25,790 nt of DNA, taken from positions 1 to 25,790 of IMG/VR virus record IMGVR_UViG_3300037961_000071. One strand, given 5' to 3'. A program made the translations under genes and the position numbers. Position 1 is the first letter of the stretch. Every line of letters begins with the position of its first letter. The notes beneath the pieces are model-generated. The model made no database searches and was not told where the DNA came from. It worked only from the letters and a program-made list of their open reading frames with translations. This DNA is from a virus. Below, one piece after another: positions 7,297 to 22,225 of the stretch.

Positions 7297-7304
7297 TATA
7301 AATA
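7297..7304 (+). promoter_or_regulatory. Late promoter (TATAAATA) for hsp20
   Basis: TATAAATA at 7297-7304 is an exact match to the T4 late consensus. It lies 52 bp before the hsp20 ATG, further than the other late promoters in this window, leaving a leader of roughly 45 bases. The 7192-7356 gap holds only this promoter, the opposing one and a hairpin. Confidence 0.75.
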
Positions 7305-15069: not shown

Positions 15070-15344
15070 TGAGTGACGAACTAATTTCACAACGCAAATC
15101 AACTGCCCTAATGAAGGCATTGCATGACAACATCAAAGATACCATCGCAGAACTTGGATGGGATTGTTATGACGATGTTGTTGTGCAGGTTGGTGGCACC
15201 TCAGTCTATGAGATTGATGGTGCTGGCACCAAGTGGGCACCTGTTAAAGGTACTCGTAAATATAATAAGGATGCATTCATTGTTATTAAGAATAGAAGTA
15301 GGGAACCTTATGCTCCATCCCAAGCACCAGTACATGACTGTTAA
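15069..15344 (+). CDS. Small hypothetical protein
   Basis: A 91-residue product starting MSDELISQRKSTALMKALH at the ATG that overlaps the previous TAA. A longer start at ATG 15036 (adding MHGKLDPDEDV) is possible, with GGA 11 bases upstream. The middle (DTIAELGWDCYDDVVVQVGG) and the end (KWAPVKGTRKYNKDAFIVIK) suggest a small alpha/beta domain. I recognise no family. It is the last gene of the replication unit before a late promoter, which overlaps its stop codon. Confidence 0.6.
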   Translation: MSDELISQRKSTALMKALHDNIKDTIAELGWDCYDDVVVQVGGTSVYEIDGAGTKWAPVKGTRKYNKDAFIVIKNRSREPYAPSQAPVHDC

Positions 15345-15350
15345 TAAATA
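15343..15350 (+). promoter_or_regulatory. Late promoter (AATAAATA) for the 15376-18985 unit
   Basis: AATAAATA at 15343-15350 resembles the late core. It lies 25 bp before the GTG start at 15376 and overlaps the TAA of the preceding gene (15342-15344). It marks the switch from replication genes to a late unit. Confidence 0.65.
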
Positions 15351-15375: not shown

Positions 15376-16737
15376 GTGGCATCCAAAATTCAAGACGTTT
15401 GGCCAAGATATATTCCTGTCTTTCGTAATGGTCATGACGGTACAGTTGCACGATCAACACCCATCTATGATTCAGAAAGTGGGAATAGAAAACTAGGATC
15501 TGTTCCTAAGGATGCTGACGTTCACTACATTGCAGGTAATTTCCAGCAACCTCCATCTCGTATGGAGGTTTTGTGGTATCCGAACAGTCGTGCTGATGAA
15601 CCAGTTCGTGGGTGGATCAGTCTTGCTGCTGTAAAGAAACCCACCATGACACGTACTGGTGTCAAGGTATCAATGAAACCTCAGGACTTCCCTGGTATTG
15701 GTGGTGTTGAACTAGCATACTCTGCCTACCTTGACAAGATCAAGGAGGTTGTTCTCGCAAGAGACATGCCTATTCCGTTAAAGAACTACCTTATACAACT
15801 GATTGAGTATTGTGATAGTCATTCATCAGGAGATAGGGCAGATCTGATTGCTGCATACAGAGACTTCGCTAACAGTGATGCATTCGATAGTCTCGCTAAC
15901 ATCCAGAAGGATTTTAGTGAGTTGATGGCACCCATCTGTGTACTTGAAAGGGGTCAGAGACAACTTGCTAGTCTAGGTTTCGCAGAACTCAACAAGGGAA
16001 ATGCGATTGTGTTCGTACCCACAGCAGGTAACTACCCTCTGATTGACTTCATCATTAGGGACACCAGTGGTAGAGAGTATCCTTTCTCTGTGAAGGTTCT
16101 GTCAAAGACTACTAACGTCATCAAACCACAAGACTTAATGGAGTTTGTGGATGACAATCCAAGAGATCCTTTCATCGTCCAGTTCAAGAGGACCCCAGAG
16201 TATGAAGTGCTTCGACTCCTGGGTCAGACTAGGAAGGGTGTTGCCGAGACCTCCTATGAGACAATCAAATATCTGGCACAGACCCAACCCTTTTCTAGCA
16301 AGTTACCGAGTACAATAGCAAGAGTGATACCAGACAACCCTGACAAGCAGAGATTTACTGATGCAGTCATCGATGCAAACAGAGAAGTCTGGAACGAAAT
16401 GTATGAACAGTATTACAGGGAGGGTAGAGGACAACTGGACGACGCAGCACTCATCAGGAAGAATGGTAAATACAATCAACTGTCATACCTAATGCAGGTG
16501 GCGATTGCAAAGATCAGTCAGGACAGGACCCGTGGTCTCAACTACCTTGAAATTGTTAGAGACTTCCTGATGGAGCAAGTGGCATACTACAAGTTCAAGA
16601 TCAACAGTAACGGGATGCCCGAGTTCAAGATGGAGAACAAGTTCCATAACGAGTTCGATGCCAACACTAAGTTTGTTCTTAGGGCAAAATCATCCAAGGG
16701 TTCACCTATCAACGACAGACTCGGAGTCCAACCATGA
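15376..16737 (+). CDS. Late hypothetical protein with N-terminal SH3-like region
   Basis: A 453-residue protein starting with GTG at 15376, placed 25 bp after a late promoter. Residues 20-86 (DGTVARSTPIYDSESGNRKL to GWISLAAV) look like a bacterial SH3-type small beta-barrel. The middle (about 110-200) is helical. Around residues 219-245, LIDFIIRD then EYPFSVKVLSK has the strand-turn-strand shape of PD-(D/E)xK nucleases, with D224 and S-V-K240; the usual acidic residue before the lysine is replaced, so activity is doubtful. The C-terminal part (FTDAVIDANREVWNEMYEQ) is helical. It overlaps the next gene by four bases. It might be a virion or assembly protein, but no family is recognised. Confidence 0.6.
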   Translation: MASKIQDVWPRYIPVFRNGHDGTVARSTPIYDSESGNRKLGSVPKDADVHYIAGNFQQPPSRMEVLWYPNSRADEPVRGWISLAAVKKPTMTRTGVKVSMKPQDFPGIGGVELAYSAYLDKIKEVVLARDMPIPLKNYLIQLIEYCDSHSSGDRADLIAAYRDFANSDAFDSLANIQKDFSELMAPICVLERGQRQLASLGFAELNKGNAIVFVPTAGNYPLIDFIIRDTSGREYPFSVKVLSKTTNVIKPQDLMEFVDDNPRDPFIVQFKRTPEYEVLRLLGQTRKGVAETSYETIKYLAQTQPFSSKLPSTIARVIPDNPDKQRFTDAVIDANREVWNEMYEQYYREGRGQLDDAALIRKNGKYNQLSYLMQVAIAKISQDRTRGLNYLEIVRDFLMEQVAYYKFKINSNGMPEFKMENKFHNEFDANTKFVLRAKSSKGSPINDRLGVQP

Positions 16738-17927
16738 GCAAGAATACTCACCTAGAACACCTAGAAGATGACATCTTCAACAATGGTTATGCTGGTGCTC
16801 AGAATGCACTGGCGTTCCTGGAAGGACTCAAAGGTATGCTGACCACTGGTAAGGGTGGTGGCAACATGAAGGTCACAGTCAAGTGGGACGGTGCTCCTGC
16901 CATCATCTGTGGTGAGGATCCTGTCAATGGATTCTTCTTTGTCGGCACCAAGTCTGTGTTCGCCAAGACTGAACCTAAGATCTGCTATACCCATGATGAT
17001 ATTGATCAGTGGTATCAGGGAGAACTCAACACCAAGTTGAAGATGGCACTAGACCACTTGTCAAAGTTGCCTATCAAGGGTGTGATCCAAGGTGACCTCC
17101 TCTATACTGGAACTCCAACGCTCACCATGATGGGTGGCAAGAGATGCTACAAGTTCAAACCCAACACGATCACCTACTGTGTAGAGAAAGACACAGAGAT
17201 GGGTAAGAAAGTTGCCAAGTCGCAGGTTGGTATAGTGTTCCACACACATTACAATGGAGAAGACTTTGATTCTATGGCGGCGGGTTTTGGTGTTGACGTT
17301 TCTGGTCTGCAAGGTAACCCTGATGTGGCAGTCTTCTCCTCATCATTCACCAACACCAACGGTATCGCAAACCTCACACCAGGTGAGATGAACAAACTCA
17401 CCCAGACAATGAGAGTTGCTAAGCGTAACCTAGACTCGTCTCGTAAGTTCTTGAATGAGATCGGTGGCACTCTGAAACCTATGCAACCTGCTGCTCTGTT
17501 TAAGATCTTCTTCAACCAGAAGATCAAAGAGGGTAGGATTCCTAGCACTCCACAGGCAATGCTGAATGACTTCAAGAAGTTCGTAGAGACTGCCTATGCC
17601 AAGAAAGAAGCAGGTGTGAAGACACCAAAAGCAAAGGCAAACTGGGAATCAAAGAAACAGGAGGCGATAAATTACCTAAATAGTAATAAGTCTGAAATCT
17701 ATCGTGCGTTGGCAGGGTTTAAGAACCTCATCGCTGCGAAAGAACAGATCATCAACCGACTCAAAAAGATTGAGGGAGTTGGTACATTCCTAGAAGATGA
17801 GAACGGATACAAGGTCACGAGTCCAGAAGGATTTGTGGCAATCAAGGATGGCACTGCTGTCAAACTTGTTGATCGACTTGAATTCTCCCGTGCAAACTTC
17901 ACCGTAGCAAAAGATTGGGGCAAATGA
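16734..17927 (+). CDS. Putative nucleotidyltransferase/ligase-fold protein with KxDG motif
   Basis: A 397-residue protein. MKVTVKWDGAPAIICG places K50-W-D-G53 exactly as motif I (KxDG) of ATP/NAD ligases and capping enzymes, where the lysine takes the nucleotide. Further on, FFFVGTKSVFAK resembles the strand with the conserved basic residue of motif Ia. GVIQGDLLYTG (116-126) resembles motif III (GELL/GDLL), and VGIVFHTHYNGED might fill motif IIIa or IV. The rest (about 230-397) is helical and lysine-rich. I infer a diverged polynucleotide ligase or other covalent nucleotidyltransferase, and a binding-only relative is possible. It shares a late transcript with the HxGH nucleotidyltransferase that follows (ATGA junction). 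No gp30-type ligase is in the window. Confidence 0.6.
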   Translation: MSKNTHLEHLEDDIFNNGYAGAQNALAFLEGLKGMLTTGKGGGNMKVTVKWDGAPAIICGEDPVNGFFFVGTKSVFAKTEPKICYTHDDIDQWYQGELNTKLKMALDHLSKLPIKGVIQGDLLYTGTPTLTMMGGKRCYKFKPNTITYCVEKDTEMGKKVAKSQVGIVFHTHYNGEDFDSMAAGFGVDVSGLQGNPDVAVFSSSFTNTNGIANLTPGEMNKLTQTMRVAKRNLDSSRKFLNEIGGTLKPMQPAALFKIFFNQKIKEGRIPSTPQAMLNDFKKFVETAYAKKEAGVKTPKAKANWESKKQEAINYLNSNKSEIYRALAGFKNLIAAKEQIINRLKKIEGVGTFLEDENGYKVTSPEGFVAIKDGTAVKLVDRLEFSRANFTVAKDWGK

Positions 17928-18985
17928 GATTTCGTCAGTTTATTATCGAAGCAGCACAGGCTGCTGCTAAGAAGACGACAGCAAAACCAAAGAAGAATGA
18001 AGTCGTAGACAAGCATGTCGCGATCACATTCGGCAGGTTCAACCCACCCCATGCTGGTCATGGTAAGTTGTTGGATGCCGTGAAGTCTCATGCTGGTGAC
18101 TCAGGTAACTATCGCATCTACCCATCTCGTTCTCAGGACCACAAGAAGAATCCTCTACACCCTGAGCAGAAGATTCAACACATGCGTGGTATGTTTAAGC
18201 ATCATGCTGATGCTATTCAGAACTCGGAACAACATAGAAACATCTTTGACATCCTTCGTGATCTGCATGACGAAGGTCATGAGCATGTCACCATGGTAGT
18301 TGGTGATGACAGAGTAAAAGAATTCGAGAACCTAACTCAGAAGTATAACGGTAAGCATTACGACTTTAAGAGTATCAACATCAAGAGTGCTGGTGCTCGT
18401 GATCCTAACAGTGAGGATCCTATTGAGAAGTTGTCTGCTTCTGCTATGAGAAAGCACGCTCAGTCAGGAGACCATGACGCATTCCATGGTGGCACTGGTG
18501 GGTACAAGAAGTCTAAGGAGATGATGCAGCATGTCCTCGATGGCATGACACCTCCTAAGAAACCAGCAAAGACAAAAGCAAAAGAGAAGGCAGCAGCAGT
18601 CAAGGAATCTGTATGGGAGTATGCTCCTAAACTTGACTTTGAATCCTTCCGCGACTACTATATGCTCGACCATATCTTCAAGGTCGGTGCAATCGTAGAA
18701 CATGATGACAGTGGTATTCGTGGATCTGTGGTCCACAAGGGTACTAACTACGTTGTGTTCAAAGACGAGTGGGGCGACGAGCATCGTGCTTGGTTGCAAC
18801 ACGTTAGTGAAGTGAATGAAGATGCTGATACCTCAAAGGATCAGTCAAATTATTCTGCCGATGATGGCAGTGGTAACGATTGGAAAATCGGTACTGATAA
18901 ATATAGAATGGCGGTGCAGGCAATGACGCCTGGACAAGCAACGAAGAAGTTTTCTGATTTCAGGAAATCTGTCAAGAATAAATAG
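17924..18985 (+). CDS. HxGH nucleotidyltransferase (NMNAT/cytidylyltransferase-like) with capsid-targeting-like N-terminus
   Basis: A 353-residue protein. ITFGRFNPPHAGH (H43-x-G-H46) and LSASAMRKH (170-178), the ISxxxxR-type element, identify the alpha/beta nucleotidyltransferase fold of NMN or nicotinate-mononucleotide adenylyltransferases and cytidylyltransferases; VVGDDRVKEF fits a middle strand. The enzyme domain spans about 30-207. Residues 250-297 (VGAIVEHDDSGIRG, YVVFKDEWGDEH) form a small KOW/SH3-like beta domain. The first nine residues (MRFRQFIIE, then AAQAAA) resemble the capsid-targeting peptides of T4 internal proteins, cleaved by gp21 after an I/L-x-E. Start ATG 17924 overlaps the previous stop. 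Its TAG lies inside the next late promoter. Substrate unknown. Confidence 0.75.
   Translation: MRFRQFIIEAAQAAAKKTTAKPKKNEVVDKHVAITFGRFNPPHAGHGKLLDAVKSHAGDSGNYRIYPSRSQDHKKNPLHPEQKIQHMRGMFKHHADAIQNSEQHRNIFDILRDLHDEGHEHVTMVVGDDRVKEFENLTQKYNGKHYDFKSINIKSAGARDPNSEDPIEKLSASAMRKHAQSGDHDAFHGGTGGYKKSKEMMQHVLDGMTPPKKPAKTKAKEKAAAVKESVWEYAPKLDFESFRDYYMLDHIFKVGAIVEHDDSGIRGSVVHKGTNYVVFKDEWGDEHRAWLQHVSEVNEDADTSKDQSNYSADDGSGNDWKIGTDKYRMAVQAMTPGQATKKFSDFRKSVKNK
18977..18984 (+). promoter_or_regulatory. Late promoter (AATAAATA) for the 19008-21372 unit
   Basis: AATAAATA at 18977-18984 overlaps the last codons and TAG stop of the nucleotidyltransferase gene and lies 23 bp before the ATG at 19008. A second, weaker GATAAATA occurs at 18896-18903. 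Confidence 0.65.
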
Positions 18986-19007: not shown

Positions 19008-20555
19008 ATGCTAGACATTAAAGTATCTGCCGCCCTCATGGGTTTCACGCAGAGCGAGCAAAGAAAGATCCTCGATGCCGTATATGGTGGCGATACCGTC
19101 TCTACTGAGCGCCTGAGTGAAGCAGTAAAGGTGGTCACACAGATCATTGAAGACCATGAAGAGGTGGTAGAGGGTTACGCTGGTTTCCCTATCGAGAAGG
19201 AACTGATCCAGAAGAATAAGGAGAGGTTCAAAGACGATAGGAACATCGGTAGAGTGATCTCCCAAGGAGGTCAGTCAATGGTTATCACTGGATTGAAGAG
19301 CGACGGTCGTTACCAGGTCGTCGGCAAGAAAGGTGAGAAGACCGCTAAGGCACCCGAAGATATTGGTCTCAATATGCAACGTGAGCATATTGACATCGAT
19401 GATCTGCATCAGCAGATGGTGGAAGGATTGAAGCAAGCACGTAAGAACGTGGGCGCTTCTACTTGCTGGGATGGTTACAAAGCAAAAGGAACCAAGAAAA
19501 AGAACGGCAAGGAAGTTCCTAACTGTGTCAAGGAAGAAGATCAGATCGACGAACTCTATAAGGGTAAGCACGGTCAGTCTGAGAAAGAGTATCAGGACGG
19601 TCGCTCTGATGGCGGCAAGATGATCTCTGGCGACTCCAAGCACAGTGGTGCAGCATACTCACACCGCTCCTACAAGGGGGTTGGTAAACCTGCTAAACCA
19701 GGTGAGCGTCAGAAGCACCAAGGCAAGATGGACAAAGGCACCAAAGCTGATCTTGCTTATCGTAAAGCAAACCTCAAAAAAGAAGAGGTAGAGCAGGAGA
19801 CTATCGAAGAGAAGAAGAAAGGTCTCTGGGCAAACATCCATGCCAAGCGTAAGCGTGGCGAAGCACCCGCTAAGAAGGGTGACAAAGATTATCCTAAGAC
19901 CCTCAACATCGAAGACATCCTTCATGACTGGGATGATGAGGAACTGGATACCATCTCCTTTGAGGAGTTGGAAGCGATCTGTGTTGAGGCACTCGAAGAA
20001 CTCGATGCAGACGTGCTGACTGAGGCACTTGACATCATCGATGGCATGGAACTCCTCTCTGAGGACTACTATGACTCTGCTGTTAAGGCGTCTAAGGAAG
20101 CAAGCAAGACCCCTGCTGCTAAGGCAGGTCGTGCTAACCTCCGTAAGGAGAAGATGAAGGCAGCACTTAAATCTGCTGGGTCTGCTGTCAAGAAAGGTTT
20201 GAAGACTGCTGGTAAGGCAGCGGCAAAGGGTGCTGGTTACGCTGCTGGTGCTACTGTTCGCGCTGCTAAGGCAGGTGCTTCGGAGTTCAAGAAAGGTTAC
20301 GACCGTGGTCGTGAAGGATCTACTACGAAGTCTAAGTCTTCGACTGCTGTTTCTGGTGACACAACCCGTTCTAGTTCTAGTTCTAGCGGTGGATCAGGTG
20401 AGTCCCGTGTACGTCTCCGTGATAGAATCAAGTCTGGTATCAAGAAAGTTGTCGGTGGTGCTGCCCGTGCAGTGTCCCGTGGTTCTAGAAACCTGGCAAG
20501 ACGCATGTCCGAAGAGCGTTATTCCTGGCGTAAAGAAATGGGAATGGACGAATGA
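19008..20555 (+). CDS. Long basic late protein, probably virion-internal or prohead-core
   Basis: A 515-residue protein of uneven composition. The N-terminal part (about 1-145) is mixed and helical. C153 to C173 bracket WDGYKAKGTKKKNGKEVPN, a motif I have seen in cyanophage structural proteins. Residues 190-270 are Gly/Lys-rich (GRSDGGKMISGDSKHSG), 290-355 are acidic and helical (DEELDTISFEELEAICVEAL), and 360-515 are Lys/Arg/Ala-rich with Ser runs. Many L/I-x-E sites could be processed by a gp21-type protease. The pattern suits a DNA-contacting internal or scaffold-type protein, but I recognise no T4 counterpart. A late promoter lies 23 bp upstream, and the gene ends in an ATGA junction. Confidence 0.6.
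   Translation: MLDIKVSAALMGFTQSEQRKILDAVYGGDTVSTERLSEAVKVVTQIIEDHEEVVEGYAGFPIEKELIQKNKERFKDDRNIGRVISQGGQSMVITGLKSDGRYQVVGKKGEKTAKAPEDIGLNMQREHIDIDDLHQQMVEGLKQARKNVGASTCWDGYKAKGTKKKNGKEVPNCVKEEDQIDELYKGKHGQSEKEYQDGRSDGGKMISGDSKHSGAAYSHRSYKGVGKPAKPGERQKHQGKMDKGTKADLAYRKANLKKEEVEQETIEEKKKGLWANIHAKRKRGEAPAKKGDKDYPKTLNIEDILHDWDDEELDTISFEELEAICVEALEELDADVLTEALDIIDGMELLSEDYYDSAVKASKEASKTPAAKAGRANLRKEKMKAALKSAGSAVKKGLKTAGKAAAKGAGYAAGATVRAAKAGASEFKKGYDRGREGSTTKSKSSTAVSGDTTRSSSSSSGGSGESRVRLRDRIKSGIKKVVGGAARAVSRGSRNLARRMSEERYSWRKEMGMDE
20369..20386 (+). repeat. TTCTAG hexamer x3
   Basis: Three tandem copies of TTCTAG at 20369-20386 lie within the serine run of the basic late protein, encoding alternating Ser codons. 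This looks like slippage-type expansion. Confidence 0.7.
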
Positions 20556-21442: not shown

Positions 21443-22225
21443 ATGGCAATTTTCGGAAAAATTGATGCCGCAACCTTCTCGAACAACGTCGCGGTCACCA
21501 ATGGTGACGCCACTGTTACGAAGAACGCAGCGGATACAGTAGCACAAGGCGACATCCTCGAACTGGGTGGCGTTGCTTACGTCGTAGCACAGGTCACCAG
21601 CACCACTGCTATCGAACTGCACAAAGCATATGCTGGTAGCACTAACGCTGCTCTGTCTGGTGCTGTGCGTAGAACTGCTCCTAAGGCAGTTGCAGAATTT
21701 GTAGTCAAGGGTGGCGATACTCGCTCTCGTGACTTGGTGTTTGTTGATGCTACTGAGCAAGCAGTTGCTGCTAACAAGGCTCGTGGTATCTGGGGTCCTG
21801 GTTGGTGGTTGTATGAGACTTACACCACTGCTGCTGGTGACACCCGTCATAAGGCAGAGTGCATTGCATTCGTACATGCTACTGCCGCTGCTGCTGGTGA
21901 CGACGCTGATGACACCATTGTGGCAGACGTGCTTGAAACGATTACGATCGGTACTCAACCTGCTAACCAGACCACTTCTTCTGGTGCTGCAACCTTCACT
22001 GTTGCTGCAACCGTTGATCAGTCTGGCACTATCACCTATCAGTGGCAGAAGAAGACTGCTGCTGGCACCCGTTATGTAAACGTGTCTGGCGCAACCAGTG
22101 CATCTCTCGCACTGACTGGTCAACTCGCTGCTAACGATGGTGACAAGTACCGCGTGAAGATCAACACCTCTAAGGGTGCAGAAGAAGTCGTATCCGACGC
22201 CGCTACTCTGACATTCGGTAGCTAA
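21443..22225 (+). CDS. Probable virion or decoration protein with C-terminal Ig-like domain
   Basis: A 260-residue protein rich in Ala, Thr, Gly and Val. The N-terminal 150 residues (MAIFGKIDAATFSNNVAV, then GDILELGGVAYVVAQVTS) look like a small beta-rich virion domain. From about residue 168, ITIGTQPANQTTSSGAATF, ITYQWQKKT and LTGQLAANDGDKYRVKINT follow the bacterial/phage Ig-like pattern, with W in strand C and D-x-G-x-Y-x-V before strand G. Hoc-type capsid decoration and tail proteins use such domains. An exact late promoter, strong ribosome-binding site and isolation behind a terminator suggest high late expression. The exact virion location cannot be told. Confidence 0.75.
   Translation: MAIFGKIDAATFSNNVAVTNGDATVTKNAADTVAQGDILELGGVAYVVAQVTSTTAIELHKAYAGSTNAALSGAVRRTAPKAVAEFVVKGGDTRSRDLVFVDATEQAVAANKARGIWGPGWWLYETYTTAAGDTRHKAECIAFVHATAAAAGDDADDTIVADVLETITIGTQPANQTTSSGAATFTVAATVDQSGTITYQWQKKTAAGTRYVNVSGATSASLALTGQLAANDGDKYRVKINTSKGAEEVVSDAATLTFGS

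Follow-up and report, generated by a model that had tools for sequence, protein, structure and literature searches.

Does a T4-like cyanophage carry a nucleotidyltransferase inside its virion head and deliver it to the host with the DNA? The question is raised by a 25.8-kb virus record of such a phage, analysed over its whole length and referred to here as the window. In it a + strand gene (17924-18985) encodes a 353-amino-acid protein (PF01467; phrog_395, 'cytidyltransferase'; T4-GC190) whose first residues resemble the start of T4 internal head proteins. The closest named relatives of the phage are Synechococcus phages S-WAM1 (81% identity in the nucleotidyltransferase) and S-SZBM1 (78%). 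The original prediction read the resemblance as a sign that the enzyme is packed in the head, cleaved there and injected. We consider it highly probable that the protein is a CTS-tagged, protease-trimmed internal head protein that probably enters the host with the DNA as a nucleotidyltransferase. The record is a fragment without protease or capsid genes of its own, and the virion data concern orthologues in other cyanophages.

Operon context of the nucleotidyltransferase gene

The coding sequence starts MRFRQFIIEAAQAAAKKTTAKPKK and the N-terminus of the protein reads MRFRQFIIEAAQAAAKK, so that the translation bears out a start of MRFRQFIIE followed by an Ala-rich run. The start shares a four-base overlap (ATGA) with the stop codon of the upstream DUF6267 gene. 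An in-frame stop immediately 5' of this ATG in some relatives, L045 among them, supports it as the start and rules out initiation at the upstream TTG (17915). The DUF6267 gene (16734-17927, + strand) in turn has an ATGA overlap with the first gene of the operon, which is unassigned in function (15376-16737, + strand). The DUF6267 protein has no targeting peptide, and its invariant KWDG, QGD, EGFV, K377 and R381 resemble motifs of ATP-dependent ligases and capping nucleotidyltransferases. We did not adopt its assignment as a ligase-type nucleotidyltransferase: the motif pattern is suggestive, yet a comparison of its model with the PDB gave nothing significant, the top non-significant match being T4 RNA ligase 2.

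A T4-type late promoter-like sequence, NATAAATA, is present at 15344-15350 (+ strand), 5' of the first operon gene and about 2.6 kb upstream of the nucleotidyltransferase. The late promoter originally assigned to the enzyme thus likely belongs to the operon; one directly 5' of the nucleotidyltransferase gene was sought and not found. The site in relatives often reads CTAAATAG at the same place, and strict conservation of ATAAATA was ruled out, as it was found in only 17 of 47 relatives. The window contains six ATAAATA sites, all on the + strand, against 2.2 expected, and those at 7298, 15344, 18978 and 21403 are located shortly 5' of predicted gene starts.

Downstream, a basic and repetitive protein (19008-20555, + strand) is 71% identical over its N-terminal 180 amino acids to SSZBM1_139, which was detected in S-SZBM1 virions with four peptides. 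It contains internal LSEA and LTEA sites at about residues 36 and 337, and is possibly processed by the prohead protease. Further downstream lies a head protein (phrog_613, 21443-22225, + strand) whose orthologue is also virion-borne.

The N-terminal peptide matches the T4 capsid-targeting signal

The T4 ipII and ipIII genes (AF158101) both encode proteins beginning MKTYQEFIAEA, exactly the IPIII start on which the original comparison drew. Mutagenesis of IPIII placed targeting mainly at residues 4 and 7 (Tyr4 and Phe7) and processing by the gp21 protease at residues 8 and 10 (Ile8 and Glu10), with gp21 cutting after L/I-x-E (reviewed in PMC9026906). The counterparts in the window protein are F3, F6, I7, E9 and A10: aromatic residues at both targeting positions (F3 and F6), then L/I-x-E and a small residue as a prohead-protease site. 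The peptide, MRFRQFIIEA, occupies codons 1-10 (17924-17953, + strand) and has a predicted cut after E9 (17950/17951). The T4 and cyanophage tags share the form M-[KR]-x-[FY]-x-x-F-[IL]-x-E/A (the slash marks the cut) with identical targeting and cleavage residues, although in the window clade the first aromatic comes one residue earlier (F3 versus Tyr4). As with IPII and IPIII, the mature protein is basic (pI about 8.9 from A10 onward) and is a non-core cargo, but here the cargo is a 353-amino-acid enzyme. The major capsid proteins of S-SZBM1 and S-CREM2 have LTE/A near the expected maturation position, matching the cut proposed for the nucleotidyltransferase.

To describe conservation, IMG/VR was searched with the nucleotidyltransferase protein and then with a profile, which yielded usable matches at 159 loci (some contigs occur twice). 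The tag motif is found 5' of the catalytic core in all 159, and a motif of the type M-x-F-x-x-F-[I/L]-x-E-A in 68 of 68 non-redundant relatives (66 match strictly, and two begin with GTG). Start positions for the alignment were picked with the motif pattern, and no sequence was discarded for lacking the motif. Among the 67 aligned members, F6 and E9 are invariant, A10 is present in 64, position 7 is mostly I or L, and position 3 is F, Y or L. The I/L-x-E that homologues were expected to share is conserved in them. Positions 2, 4, 5 and 8 vary freely, as does the whole of the Ala/Lys-rich, low-complexity linker that follows (residues 11-30; 17954-18013, + strand), where column entropy is high. 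This hypervariable linker separates the tag from the catalytic core. The 30-nucleotide tag exists in 23 distinct versions across relatives, and synonymous changes within these first ten codons indicate that selection acts on the peptide. Conservation imposed by gene overlap was ruled out, as the overlap with the upstream gene is only four bases.

In named phages the tag is kept down to about 32% identity: MKNFSSFLTEA in S-CREM2, MKKFSTFISEA in S-ShM2, MKKFSAFLKEA in P-SSM4, MKKFSAFLNEA in S-SM1, MKLFNQFFKEA in S-CRM01 and MRFRQFIIEA in S-SZBM1_140. It is absent from the homologues of P-HM2, S-PM2 (where the enzyme is fused to DUF6267) and the jumbo phages 121Q and RaK2, and therefore behaves as a detachable module. 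Within the window, no gene other than the nucleotidyltransferase begins with the motif. In shuffled N-termini the strict motif, M.{0,6}[FY]..[FY][ILVM].E, occurs 0.18 times per whole proteome; these shuffles, with the conservation in all recovered relatives, rule out a chance match.

Tagged proteins in IMG/VR and in virions

We also scanned IMG/VR with a DNA pattern for MKx[FY]xxF[IL/F]xEA that is independent of the enzyme; the results are a sample, and counts refer to the matches listed. Among these, 77 of 82 pattern hits start an open reading frame of at least 80 amino acids, compared with 27% for any ATGAAA on the same contigs. Of the tagged proteins listed, 33 of 73 belong to phrog_395 and 21 of 73 match PF01467, and some tagged relatives match the phrog_3462 NMNAT family. 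The protein search and the tag-only scan thus both point to a strong association between the enzyme family and the tag. Other tagged cargo among the matches listed comprises DUF5661 and DUF6267 proteins, AAA/zeta-toxin-like kinases and GNAT acetyltransferases. Three neighboring proteins of the Methylophilales phage Melnitz-2 (L099, 2881-7544) have tag-like starts: MQGFKTFLSEA, INFSKYITED in a DUF6267 protein and MKKFSEIIEA in a nucleotidyltransferase.

Published mass spectrometry places three orthologues in mature virions, with low peptide counts, which answers the concern that the protein might be absent from particles. S-SZBM1_140 (78% identical to the window protein) was detected in CsCl-purified virions with two peptides and 13.5% coverage (PMC9146016), S-CREM2 ORF154 with three peptides (PMC10665884), and the T4-GC190 protein of S-SM1 is also virion-borne (PMC3037559). 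All three carry the tag in their genomes. The authors of the S-CREM2 study suggested delivery into the host and equally warned of carry-over during CsCl purification (PMC10665884). The co-operonic DUF6267 provides a comparison: its S-SZBM1 orthologue SSZBM1_141 (69% identical) is not in the virion list of that phage, and the tag is absent from 75 of 75 non-redundant orthologues among those listed. The contrast with this untagged neighbor makes the tag an argument against carry-over.

A census of the S-CREM2 proteome points the same way. The strict motif is found in three of 219 proteins (a SAM lyase with a Pfam S-AdoMet_lyase match, a kinase-like protein and the nucleotidyltransferase), and all three are virion-borne (Fisher P 0.013); with the relaxed motif the count is seven of ten (P 0.002). 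A fourth S-CREM2 virion enzyme, gp12 (L101, 7704-10313), is annotated as Cas9 and has LRFASFMAEA at residues 17-26; it has no Pfam match and the annotation looks doubtful. Many tagged nucleotidyltransferases contain a module A..LGL..DGHG.W after the tag (residues 17-20; alignment A4), which also occurs in the S-CREM2 virion kinase and the 'Cas9' protein (L101, 10579-12846 and the gp12 interval) and may be a second packaging-related module. Two small tagged S-SZBM1 proteins, 191 (MKSFKSFLSES) and 192 (MKTFKQYITEA), are not in the S-SZBM1 virion proteome list; their genes (L084, 22311-23125) adjoin structural genes.

Fold and predicted chemistry of the enzyme

The protein belongs to the HIGH-superfamily nucleotidyltransferases (PF01467, 33.3 bits against a cut-off of 21). 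Its catalytic core (residues 31-215) contains GRFNPPHxGH and SASxxR, and GRFNPP(H/T)xGH and SASxxR are near-invariant across relatives. An AlphaFold model is confident over this core, shows residues 3-14 as a helix, and leaves the linker disordered (pLDDT <50 at residues 17-27). A small C-terminal domain of confident beta strands (about residues 251-296; 18674-18811, + strand) includes the conserved G255, G264, G267, G273 and N275.

The best Foldseek matches are phosphopantetheine adenylyltransferases (PPAT; E 7.8e-5), followed by FAD synthetase, a putative NaMN adenylyltransferase and an NMNAT/ADP-ribose pyrophosphatase. These matches reach the superfamily level, at which neither sequence nor fold separates NMNAT, PPAT and FAD synthetase. 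Scores against the NCBIfam NMNAT models are far below their cut-offs (TIGR00482, 24.6 against 112.45 bits; TIGR01526, 17.7 against 341 bits), and a PDB sequence search with the nucleotidyltransferase returned no relevant match. The window protein shares the PF01467 fold, (H/T)xGH and SxSxxR with NMN/NaMN adenylyltransferases and CoaD, but is only about 10-17% identical to them in structure alignments, has substrate residues that match no single family, and possesses the extra C-terminal beta domain. The description of the enzyme as NMNAT-like therefore holds for the superfamily and its intact catalytic motifs and not for NMNAT in particular, as PPAT folds are closer. The protein is likely an active adenylyltransferase, and the leading guess for its substrate is an NMN-like molecule.

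A tagged enzyme probably carried in the phage head

The nucleotidyltransferase is very probably an internal head protein with a CTS tag and protease trimming, and the original proposal of head packing through a T4-type peptide is strongly supported by the motif conservation and the virion orthologues. The enzyme would be made late in infection from the late operon, and its first ten residues would draw it into the core of the assembling prohead, with F3 and F6 serving in binding. A gp21 homologue would then cut after E9, with I7, E9 and A10 as the residues recognized, and the basic mature enzyme starting at A10 would stay in the DNA-filled head. Late synthesis and prohead-core targeting are suggested by the sequence identity with the mutationally mapped T4 signal together with the published virion data. 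By analogy with T4 IPI, Alt and CTS fusions, the enzyme probably enters the host with the DNA, where it may act on a small molecule before new phage proteins are made.

The same observations could be read in other ways. An ordinary late metabolic (auxiliary) enzyme might contaminate virion preparations, the peptide being a conserved dimerization or stability helix. Low peptide counts, the carry-over raised by the S-CREM2 authors and the helical model of residues 3-14 would suit such an enzyme. Against such a reading, the invariant residues are those that T4 uses for targeting and cleavage, the positions separating them vary, and the linker that follows is disordered; the same peptide is found on unrelated S-CREM2 virion enzymes, and the co-transcribed, untagged DUF6267 was not detected in S-SZBM1 virions. 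We regard contamination as very unlikely. It is somewhat less improbable, though still unlikely, that the protein is packaged and trimmed for a role in head assembly or DNA packing, its catalysis being incidental. Head assembly is slowed and the burst reduced in T4 IPIII mutants (PMC9026906), and the mature protein is basic; near-invariant catalytic motifs better suit a working enzyme, and other tagged cargo includes a SAM lyase.

Within the preferred reading, in which a tagged enzyme is packaged, trimmed and probably delivered, the protein could be a genuine NMN adenylyltransferase by which NAD+ is maintained or replenished early in infection, for example against an NAD+-depleting defence. 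The best NCBIfam relatives are NaMN/NMN adenylyltransferases, NMNAT families and folds recur among the matches of the enzyme and its tagged relatives, and phages encode NAD+ rebuilding pathways. Against this stand the TIGR00482 score, far below the family cut-off, the better match to PPAT structures and the fact that a partner NAD-salvage gene was not seen in the window. We regard this sub-case as possible but doubtful.

Implications for marine T4-like phages

Enzymes found in cyanophage virions are open to the charge of contamination, and a tag bearing the residues that T4 uses for targeting and cleavage supplies a mechanism and a simple test. The T4 mechanism itself and the presence of this enzyme family in virions are already known: the cyanophage 'cytitidyltransferase' (T4-GC190; phrog_395) of S-SM1, S-SZBM1 and S-CREM2 is the same family, and its delivery to the host has been proposed. 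A literature search for the targeting tag in cyanophages found no description, and the tag and cleavage site on this enzyme appear to be unreported. To call the protein a new kind of phage effector, as was originally done, is too strong, given its virion presence and the delivery already suggested for S-CREM2. T4 Alt, a packaged ADP-ribosyltransferase, is an older example of a head-borne enzyme that gp21 trims and that enters the host along with the DNA (PMC9026906), although its fold and chemistry are unrelated to those of the nucleotidyltransferase.

The finding is of interest less as a new enzyme member than for the broad employment of the tag among marine phages. With such a tag, the cyanophage proteins that are delivered when infection begins can be looked for by sequence search. 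We would tentatively suggest that marine T4-like phages load varied head enzymes by a T4-type tag. Their commonest cargo would be the present adenylyltransferase, which within minutes of the start of infection would act on host NAD+ or a different nucleotide cofactor, for instance to counter a defence based on nucleotides or NAD+. T4-GC190 has been described as part of the gene core of marine T4-like cyanophages, so that the delivery of a cofactor-modifying activity could be important in a great many ocean infections.
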